Part shown: positions 28,813-33,324 of the stretch, in pieces | Layout: each line of letters opens with the position of its first letter | Position numbering within the stretch: the stretch's first letter is position 1 | From: an uncultured Alphaproteobacteria bacterium | GTDB lineage: Bacteria; Pseudomonadota; Alphaproteobacteria; Sphingomonadales; SMXR01 | Length of the DNA: 38,018 nt | NCBI GenBank assembly: GCA_937126915.1 | Contig: CAKZLM010000010.1 | Coordinates: 1 to 38,018, forward strand | Direction of reading: 5' to 3' | Translations under genes and position numbers: made by a program | Notes under the pieces: model-generated | Databases searched by the model: none | What the model was told of the DNA's origin: nothing | What the model saw: the letters and a program-made list of their open reading frames with translations, nothing else

Positions 28813-30210
28813 ATGAAAAAAATAAATTCGATAAAAGTAGGTGGACGCGAAGTATTACCCCTGATTGAGGGTGGTAAGGGTATTGCTGTGTCATCTGGTG
28901 CCAGTTCTGGTCCATGGGCGAAAGCAGGTGGCATCGGCACGGTTTCAGCTGTGAATGCTGATCATTATGATGAAGATGGCAACATTATCCCTCAGGTGTA
29001 TCAGGGAAAAACCCGTCGTGAACGTCATGAAGAGCTTATTCAATATGGCATTCAGGGTGGCGTAACGCAGGTTCAAAAGGCCCATGAATTATCCAATGGC
29101 GAAGGGGCGTTGAACATCAACGTGCTATGGGAAATGGGTGGCTCTGAAAGCATTTTGCACGGCGTTTTGGACAAAACCCGTGGCATGGTAAACGGCGTTA
29201 CCTGTGGTGCTGGTATGCCTTACCGTTTGGCTGAAATTGCCTCATCATACGGTGTTTATTATTATCCAATTATTTCTTCTGCCCGTGCCTTTGGTGCCTT
29301 GTGGAAACGCGCGTATCAAAAATGTGCCGATTATTTAGGCGCGGTGGTTTATGAGGATCCGTGGCTAGCAGGCGGTCATAATGGCTTGTCTAACAAAGAA
29401 GACCCCTTGAAACCACAAGACCCATATCCACGGGTTTTGGAATTGCGCAAAATGATGCGAAAATTTGGTTTGGGTGAAACCCCCATTGTGATGGCGGGTG
29501 GCGTTTGGTATTTGCGTGATTGGGAAGATTGGATCGACAATGAAGAATTGGGTCCGATCATGTTCCAATTTGGTACCCGTCCTTTATTAACTAAAGAAAG
29601 CCCTATCTCAGAAAGCTGGAAAGATAAATTACCAACTTTGAAACCAGGTGAAGTGAAATTGCATCGCTTCTCACCAACGGGCTTTTTCTCATCGGCGGTT
29701 GAAAACTCTTTCTTGAAAGAGCTTTATGAGCGCTCAAAGCGTCAAATTTCGTTCAGCACCAAACAAACTGATGAGCATTCTGAGCCCTTAAGCTATGGCG
29801 AACGTGCCCGCACTATTTTCACCAGCCTTGCTGAAAAAGTAAAGGCCGAGGGATGGATGCGTTTAGGGTTCACTGAAGGCCTGAAAACACCTGATGAAAC
29901 CATGGTGTTTGTTGACGCTGAAAAACGTGATGATATTCGCAAAGATCAGGTTGATTGTATGGGTTGCCTTAGCATGTGCGGTTTTTCTAACTGGGCCGAT
30001 AATGAGAAAAACTCTTCCGGTCGTAAGGCTGACCCGCGCAGCTTCTGTATTCAAAAAACCTTGATGGACATCGCCCACGGTGGTGACATTGATAACAATT
30101 TGATGTTTGCTGGCCATTCTGCCTTTAACTTTGCCAAGGACCCGTTCTATTCCAACGGTTTTGTGCCAACGGTTAAGCAATTGGTTGACCGCATCATGAC
30201 GGGCGATTAG
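28813..30210 (+). CDS. NMO/2-nitropropane-dioxygenase-type FMN oxidoreductase with a C-terminal cysteine cluster
   Basis: A 465-residue cytosolic flavoprotein of the nitronate monooxygenase-like (TIM-barrel, FMN) superfamily. Supporting segments are the Gly-rich N-terminus (ISSGASSGPWAKAGGIG-like, 26-42), GVTCGAGMP (128-136), GGHNG (187-191) and VMAGGVW (226-232), which fit the FMN phosphate and active-site loops. It is longer than typical nitronate monooxygenases (about 320-360). The extra C-terminal region has Cys382, Cys385, Cys389 and Cys412, a CxxCxxxC-x22-C set that could bind an Fe-S cluster or zinc. GGAG lies 6 bases before the ATG. Substrate unknown; 'nitronate monooxygenase' is a superfamily label only. 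Confidence 0.8.
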   Translation: MKKINSIKVGGREVLPLIEGGKGIAVSSGASSGPWAKAGGIGTVSAVNADHYDEDGNIIPQVYQGKTRRERHEELIQYGIQGGVTQVQKAHELSNGEGALNINVLWEMGGSESILHGVLDKTRGMVNGVTCGAGMPYRLAEIASSYGVYYYPIISSARAFGALWKRAYQKCADYLGAVVYEDPWLAGGHNGLSNKEDPLKPQDPYPRVLELRKMMRKFGLGETPIVMAGGVWYLRDWEDWIDNEELGPIMFQFGTRPLLTKESPISESWKDKLPTLKPGEVKLHRFSPTGFFSSAVENSFLKELYERSKRQISFSTKQTDEHSEPLSYGERARTIFTSLAEKVKAEGWMRLGFTEGLKTPDETMVFVDAEKRDDIRKDQVDCMGCLSMCGFSNWADNEKNSSGRKADPRSFCIQKTLMDIAHGGDIDNNLMFAGHSAFNFAKDPFYSNGFVPTVKQLVDRIMTGD

Positions 30211-32720: not shown

Positions 32721-33251
32721 TTATTCTTCGATTAGCTCACTGGTGAAAGTGCCCCAGATGTGGCCTTCTGGCAGCCAGCCTTCACGGCCTGCCATGTTAA
32801 GTTGGCACCAACCTTTGGTACATCTTAAAATAGGGGCAACCACGCCGGGGCGGGCTTTGATCACAATTTCAGAACCGCGATTGGGTTCGGCATAAAGATT
32901 GCGAATAACAGAGCCTGTCACGATGGCGGTGCGCTCGCCCGATAAAAGGGCGCGGTGCATCCACCCGCTGGTGCCTTCAAAGTCACGAACACGACGCCAT
33001 TGCCCATATTCTGACGTCACAACCAAAGGCAGATCATTGCGTTGATACACCCATAGAATGGGGTATTGATCGCCAGGGCCTGTACGCATATTAACTTTAT
33101 CAGTATCAATGGACACAAAGCGCGGAATGGTTAGACCAGATTCGCCAACAACGGCCTGACCTTTATCCAACGCTTGGGCAAAGGCGCTATCGGTTTGAAC
33201 CGTGGAAAATGACAAAAGAATCAAGGCAAAAGTTACAATAAAGCGGCTCAT
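32721..33251 (-). CDS. Secreted protein with two bacterial SH3 domains
   Basis: A 176-residue exported protein. The signal peptide (MSRFIVTFALILLSFS..., cut near SAFAQ) precedes two SH3_4-type domains (DUF1058-like): VNMRTGPGDQYPILWVYQR...WRRVRDFEGTSGWMH, then RNLYAEPNRGSEIVIKARPG...WCQLNMAGREGWLP. Such domains often bind peptidoglycan or mediate envelope interactions; the role here is unknown. Two Cys (ILRCTKGWC) in the second domain could form a disulphide. ATG 33251 is chosen because GGGGA lies 10 bases upstream and the signal peptide starts cleanly; an ATG at 33269 adds six residues. Confidence 0.88.
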   Translation of the reverse strand: MSRFIVTFALILLSFSTVQTDSAFAQALDKGQAVVGESGLTIPRFVSIDTDKVNMRTGPGDQYPILWVYQRNDLPLVVTSEYGQWRRVRDFEGTSGWMHRALLSGERTAIVTGSVIRNLYAEPNRGSEIVIKARPGVVAPILRCTKGWCQLNMAGREGWLPEGHIWGTFTSELIEE

Positions 33252-33324
33252 AAAAGCGTGTGTCCCCATAATGATTATGATTAGTCTACTATGCTGATTT
33301 TCAATTTAACGGTCAAGCATATGG

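Follow-up and report, generated by a model that had tools for sequence, protein, structure and literature searches.

A long-form FabX/UfaA-like flavoprotein as the probable unsaturated fatty acid enzyme of FabA-less Alphaproteobacteria

Known FabA-independent enzymes and the gene in the window

It is already known that 2-nitropropane-dioxygenase-like proteins make unsaturated fatty acids (UFAs) in bacteria without FabA, the described cases being UfaA and FabX. As described in PMC8626469, H. pylori FabX (HP0773, PDB 7e1q) is an acyl-ACP dehydrogenase/isomerase with FMN and a [4Fe-4S] cluster that does FabA's job in UFA synthesis; its authors counted homologs at >50% identity and said that they occur mostly in microaerophiles. 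UfaA (NGO1024) of Neisseria gonorrhoeae (Isabella and Clark 2011) belongs to the same superfamily and is likewise tied to UFA synthesis in a FabA-less bacterium; as cited in PMC11300592 and PMC4549310, it is reported for anaerobic UFA synthesis with an unknown acceptor. FabX, like the long form described here, occurs without FabA and FabB. The E. coli-type pair FabA-FabB has a fold unrelated to these flavoproteins and uses redox-neutral dehydratase/isomerase chemistry. FabK and the nitronate monooxygenases (NMO; PF03060) share with the protein described here a TIM barrel, FMN and an active-site His, but no cluster has been described for them, and FabK uses NAD(P)H. Neither of these two groups is known to be tied to the absence of FabA.

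The window analyzed here, a stretch of 38,018 nucleotides from an uncultured alphaproteobacterium of the Sphingomonadales, carries a relative of these enzymes as a single intact ORF of 465 amino acids that starts with ATG (Table 1). The gene lies between one that we take, from its sequence, to be pnp and a TonB-dependent receptor gene, in which a Plug domain was found. Because no fatty-acid gene adjoins it in the window, we rejected the gene neighborhood as a direct clue to function. Among the literature matches listed, judged by titles and abstract openings, no study deals with this alphaproteobacterial long form or with the in-place exchange described below; Isabella and Clark 2011 and Bi et al. 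2016 could mention homologs.

Table 1. Features of the long-form gene, in window coordinates
Feature	Position	Strand	Evidence
Long-form FabX/UfaA-like flavoprotein, whole gene	28813..30210	+	ORF, Pfam, PDB sequence search, Foldseek, VIA
FMN-binding TIM barrel, NMO type (~residues 1-310)	28813..29742	+	PDB sequence match, VIA, alignment
Basic helix R158, K165, R166, K170, aligned with the ACP-binding helix of FabX	29284..29322	+	Alignment
His189, aligned with catalytic His182 of FabX	29377..29379	+	112/112 rows
Extra subdomain (~residues 311-381), predicted as bb-a-bb-a; pLDDT 90-97 (block means)	29743..29955	+	Structure model
Predicted [4Fe-4S] ligand stretch C382-x2-C385-x3-C389-x22-C412	29956..30048	+	Cys conservation, alignment

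The top match in a PDB sequence search (E 4e-23) is a "2-nitropropane dioxygenase," 9lt5/7e1q, which the fold search shows to be H. pylori FabX. A structure model built from 25 sequences (mean pLDDT 80.8, pTM 0.82) gave the same ranking. With this predicted model, Foldseek placed FabX first in the PDB (E 5.6e-18, versus 8.3e-12 for FabK), as did VIA (Z 34.3, rmsd 3.0, 352 aligned residues over model positions 1-464, versus Z 27.0 for FabK). The NMO-like TIM barrel proposed in an earlier note on this DNA is thus confirmed, both by these fold matches and by Pfam, whose NMO model (PF03060) matches residues 126-341. Sequence identity to FabX is low, at 18-26% (26% over the structural alignment), which places the protein under the >50% bar.

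Two more conventional assignments bear weighing here. The protein could be a nitronate monooxygenase or NADH:quinone reductase used in detoxification, with a structural metal site, and its Pfam score of 31.4 bits does exceed the cut-off of 28. However, that match is weak and covers half of the protein, and we regard it as a superfamily-level label. A better NMO match is encoded elsewhere in the genome (contig C149, 82.4 bits), PA1024 and the NMO structures reach at most Z 26.6 against 34.3 for FabX, and a detoxification enzyme predicts neither the exclusion of FabA (in samples of 398 and 396 genomes) nor the exchange with fabA-fabB reported below. The window protein is not an ordinary nitronate monooxygenase, and we consider a detoxification role extremely unlikely. 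An enoyl-ACP reductase of the FabK type, the second-best fold family, seems scarcely credible: the protein reaches 16.8 bits with the FabK model TIGR03151, whose cut-off is 453.1, so FabK membership is not indicated, and the full NCBIfam search of the 465-residue protein gave no model above cut-off. In addition, according to PMC8626469, the cluster domain of FabX stands where FabK binds NAD(P)H.

Active site, cysteines and extra subdomain

Conservation was assessed over 112 aligned rows, comprising the window protein and 111 of the 115 loci that gave a match; near-duplicates were kept, and the window's own gene appears three times. A second alignment, A1, holds 25 members at <80% identity. The roles of FabX residues used for comparison (FMN ligands, catalytic His and ACP contacts) are those given in PMC8626469. 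By sequence alignment, the FabX FMN ligands N99, E175, Q240 and T243 correspond to the invariant N103, E181, Q252 and T255; the catalytic H182 corresponds to H189, present in every row, and its partner S273 to S287, which is invariant too. The ACP-binding residues K152, K159, R160 and R164 align with R158, K165, R166 and K170, of which R158 and R166 occur in 112/112 rows. Position 170 is basic in 103/112 (K in 100, R in 3, N in the other 9). The FabX ACP contacts T130 and N131 are not kept, their places being taken by Y/F and K/R. Model confidence is low near the FMN and His loops (pLDDT <50 at 23-27, 187-195 and 255-257). In all, the FMN ligands, the catalytic His and the basic ACP-binding patch of FabX are conserved in the long form.

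The protein has six cysteines, at positions 131, 171, 382, 385, 389 and 412. The earlier note had singled out the last four, and these are Cys in all 112 rows, whereas position 171 is Cys in only four. All four are invariant in A1, where the last stands in the context D407-P-R-S-(F/Y)-C412-I-Q-K-T, and L173-L180, eight members that have diverged further, keep all four as well. Cys131 is an unlikely ligand, since it is missing from L180. A second, weakly scoring domain of the profile match sets C412-I against C320-I of FabX and continues into the tail, which lines up with the tail residues F339-G341 that contact FMN in FabX; the other three cysteines precede the C412 equivalent in every subgroup examined. 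The four cysteines line up with those that hold the [4Fe-4S] cluster in H. pylori FabX, and a cluster is predicted.

These comparisons refine the earlier picture of a C-terminal iron-sulfur module. It had been put at about 110 residues, but some 150 residues follow the barrel, made up of a subdomain, the cysteine stretch and the tail. Its cysteines did not vary among homologs, which was the check that the note had proposed, and the module has a precedent in FabX. An iron-sulfur cluster beside FMN, with a reaction other than nitronate oxidation, is well supported because the invariant cysteines align with the FabX ligands. The suggestion that the cluster serves as a donor feeding FMN needs changing: PMC8626469 describes the cluster of FabX as a depot for an electron that comes from FMN and goes back to it. 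As for the reaction, which had been left unnamed, the evidence points to UFA synthesis.

The long form differs from FabX in size (465 versus 363 aa) and in the extra subdomain of ~70 residues between the barrel and the first Cys, which FabX does not have. Modeled alone from 33 sequences, the subdomain (85 residues) reached pLDDT 91.9, and in the whole model it is also confident. Pfam searches with subdomain copies gave no match for the window protein or L034 and one chance-level match for L179 (E 0.18), and PDB searches with the subdomain gave no clear match (Foldseek best E 0.58, VIA best Z 2.4). No function could be read from the subdomain, and the missing match does not show that its fold is new.

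Cysteine spacing also separates the subgroups: C-x2-C-x3-C-x22-C in the long form, C-x3-C-x3-C-x11-C in FabX and C-x5-C-x3-C-x12-C in L162-L164, which have no extra subdomain and which we take as UfaA-like on the basis of an intermediate FabX match (L163, E 4e-51). Shorter relatives (~367-402 aa; L161 and L163-L172) with four C-terminal cysteines are found in other FabA-less genomes of the phylum, and PDB searches with two of them gave FabX at E 5e-81 and 4e-51. Within one phylum, the UFA role may be shared by at least three subfamilies.

We built a tree of 34 rows from 13 of the 25 A1 members, eight more long forms, seven of nine FabX-like sequences, three UfaA-like sequences, H. pylori FabX and two outgroups from the window's own genome; L004 was left out, as its frame looked wrong. 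The 21 long forms make up one group (support 100/95) beside the FabX-like and UfaA-like sequences (95/88), on long branches. The root is uncertain because both outgroups are very distant: L001 is a distant NMO, and L002 is presumably an IMP dehydrogenase, from its appearance. With the extra subdomain and the other cysteine spacing, the best reading is that the long form is a distinct clade beside FabX and UfaA.

Mutual exclusion with FabA and exchange with fabA-fabB

We called FabA where TIGR01749 scored over cut-off and, in the phylum sample, the long form where profile A1 matched at E <1e-100, including clear fragments. In a control set of 14 known genomes, the FabA model was over cut-off in two, E. 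coli and Caulobacter vibrioides. Across a phylum sample of 398 genomes, 166 match A1 (109 long forms and 57 weaker matches) and 199 have FabA; neither a long form nor a weaker A1 match occurs together with FabA in any of the 398 (relatedness uncorrected), and 33 genomes lack FabA and A1 matches alike. The window's own class contributes 135 genomes: the long form alone is found in 40, FabA alone in 93, both in none and neither in two (Fisher p 2.7e-32, uncorrected for relatedness). The remaining 69 long-form genomes belong to families f43, f62 and f83, outside the class. The two class members that have neither FabA over cut-off nor a long form, G304 and G456, have a stated completeness of 100%. 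Four genomes (G149, G288, G108 and G235) have intermediate FabA-profile matches under the cut-off (E 1e-20 to 1e-26), which may come from FabA-like domains in polyunsaturated fatty acid synthases.

The same pattern is seen closer to the window. Its own genome has no FabA over cut-off. The long form occurs in 96 of the 99 nearest relatives, a set that counts the window's own genome, and FabA is over cut-off in exactly two, both among the three without the long form. In an order sample of 396 genomes that includes these 99, 372 have the long form, 22 have FabA, none has both and two have neither (relatedness uncorrected). In other words, all 22 FabA genomes are without the long form, which is found in 372 of the 374 others; the two exceptions are G008 (430 contigs, 90% complete) and G482 (76% complete). 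Of the 24 order genomes without the long form, 20 were listed as such (18 with FabA, plus G008 and G482), and four FabA genomes (G756, G763, G764 and G767) are absent from the list of 372. A query with the FabB of G067 in 11 genomes recovered FabB proper only in G067 itself and G090, and the remaining genomes gave FabF-like matches at 38-41% (38% in the window's own genome).

It could be argued that the exclusion of FabA reflects shared ancestry only, with no functional link, and that UFAs come from desaturases. Related genomes are indeed not independent, and a desaturase-family protein (PF00487) is found in 90 of the 99 relatives, own genome included, so a contribution of such a desaturase to UFA supply is possible. 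However, the FabA genomes of the order fall in four genera (g16, g32, g260 and g271), each of which also has long-form genomes. In nine relatives PF00487 was not matched; each of these carries the long form, none has FabA over cut-off and six are at least 99% complete, so that the long form is the sole one of the three sought (long form, FabA, PF00487). Furthermore, G067 and G090, the FabA genomes among the 99 relatives, keep PF00487. Desaturases as the UFA source behind the pattern were rejected, as they do not account for the exchange with fabA-fabB, and we give almost no credence to ancestry alone.

That exchange emerged from 14-kb stretches compared in 11 of the 22 FabA genomes and four long-form relatives. 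Gene names at this slot, other than FabA, the SH3 protein and the long form, are our reading of the sequences rather than tool annotation. Ten of the 11 FabA genomes share the order PBP - prfB - methyltransferase - fabA - fabB - reductase - SH3 protein - thiolase, fabA-fabB keeping one position and one strand throughout. In G017, G049 and G076, a single long-form gene occupies the place of fabA-fabB, on the same strand. The gap after the methyltransferase gene is 0.07-0.11 kb before the long form and 0.1-0.3 kb before fabA; the gap to the reductase varies, from 0.5-1.3 kb after the long form to 0.9-3.5 kb after fabB. The exception, G763, carries fabA-fabB in the opposite orientation, ~3 kb away from the reductase-SH3-thiolase block, and its 14-kb stretch showed no PBP, prfB or methyltransferase gene. 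In G731, a member of the same genus, the reductase and SH3 genes come ~4 kb beyond the long form.

Across loci L186, L187 and L190-L198, from four genera, FabA and FabB each average 93% identity between genera, against 92 and 93% within them, whereas all six flanking genes measured drop between genera (e.g., prfB from 92 to 84, PBP from 78 to 67 and thiolase from 88 to 84). This pattern is as expected if a fabA-fabB cassette moved horizontally and recombined into one locus. Together with the exclusion of FabA, the in-place exchange is the decisive evidence.

Two further features of the slot were observed. The gap between prfB and the methyltransferase gene holds 1.8-3.1 kb of extra DNA in five FabA loci (L186, L191, L195, L196 and L198), and the two genes are no more than ~0.12 kb apart in L185, L187-L190, L193, L194 and L197. 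The SH3-domain protein (PF06347, PF08239), encoded in the window at 32721-33269 on the minus strand, stands beside the slot also where fabA-fabB replaces the long form. Among the 61 flanking loci holding at least 13 kb (out of 80), it was matched in 48 and pnp in 17.

Proposed reaction and its meaning

The long form is very probably the enzyme that introduces the double bond into UFAs in this bacterium and its FabA-less relatives, acting as an FMN/[4Fe-4S] acyl-ACP dehydrogenase/isomerase like FabX. This is the best explanation because the active site, ACP patch and cluster ligands of FabX are joined by occurrence in FabA-less genomes and exchange with fabA-fabB. Fold, conserved residues, mutual exclusion with FabA and exchange at the same locus are observed; the substrate, the two reaction steps, the presence of a cluster and the electron acceptor are predicted. 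We hold the UFA double-bond role to be nearly certain, and FabX-like oxidative chemistry to be highly likely. Points against a FabX-like reading are the 26% identity, the other cysteine spacing and the extra subdomain, and the literature searched yielded no biochemistry or genetics on the long-form clade. The PF00487 proteins in most relatives, the 33 phylum genomes without FabA or an A1 match, the deviating G763, the lack of an adjoining fab gene, and FabX homologs described as mostly from microaerophiles beside a largely aerobic order also count against it.

By analogy with FabX, a medium-chain saturated acyl-ACP (decanoyl-ACP in FabX) would dock on the basic helix at residues 158-170. His189 and FMN would take two hydrogens to give trans-2-enoyl-ACP, which would be shifted to the cis-3 isomer inside a bent tunnel. 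The predicted product, cis-3-decenoyl-ACP, is the one shared with FabA-FabB. One electron would be parked on the cluster of C382/C385/C389/C412 and then passed back to FMN, which would be reoxidized by O2 or another acceptor. A FabF-type synthase is proposed for the elongation of the cis-3 product because no FabB was found.

The comparative evidence bears on the role rather than the chemistry, and it would fit any enzyme that yields cis-3-enoyl-ACP. FabA could then have been replaced by a redox-neutral route, a FabM-like isomerization to cis-3 of trans-2-decenoyl-ACP made by FabZ, in which the flavin and cluster only hold the site together. Against this, the four-Cys module and the FMN site are conserved as in FabX, for which dehydrogenation has been shown in PMC8626469, and we judge such a route improbable. 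A bolder version of the oxidative reading is that the long form makes up a class of oxidative UFA synthase of its own, the third, in which the bb-a-bb-a subdomain would let the reduced flavin/cluster pass electrons to a partner other than O2 (an electron-transfer flavoprotein, ferredoxin or quinone), coupling membrane desaturation to respiration in Alphaproteobacteria, and that it has been repeatedly displaced in place by horizontally moving fabA-fabB. This is a speculative proposal that we think rather unlikely to hold in full.

Since fabA-fabB occupies the place of the long form in some relatives, the idea of a UFA role is directly testable, and the in-place exchange amounts to a natural complementation experiment. 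If the FabX-like acyl-ACP dehydrogenase/isomerase reading is true, UFA synthesis in FabA-less Alphaproteobacteria would become a testable one-gene hypothesis, and a misleading "nitronate monooxygenase" label would be replaced on a gene present in 372 of 396 genomes of the order. The order to which the window's genome belongs is largely aerobic. FabX-like chemistry would thereby be extended from mostly microaerophiles to a large, mostly aerobic group.
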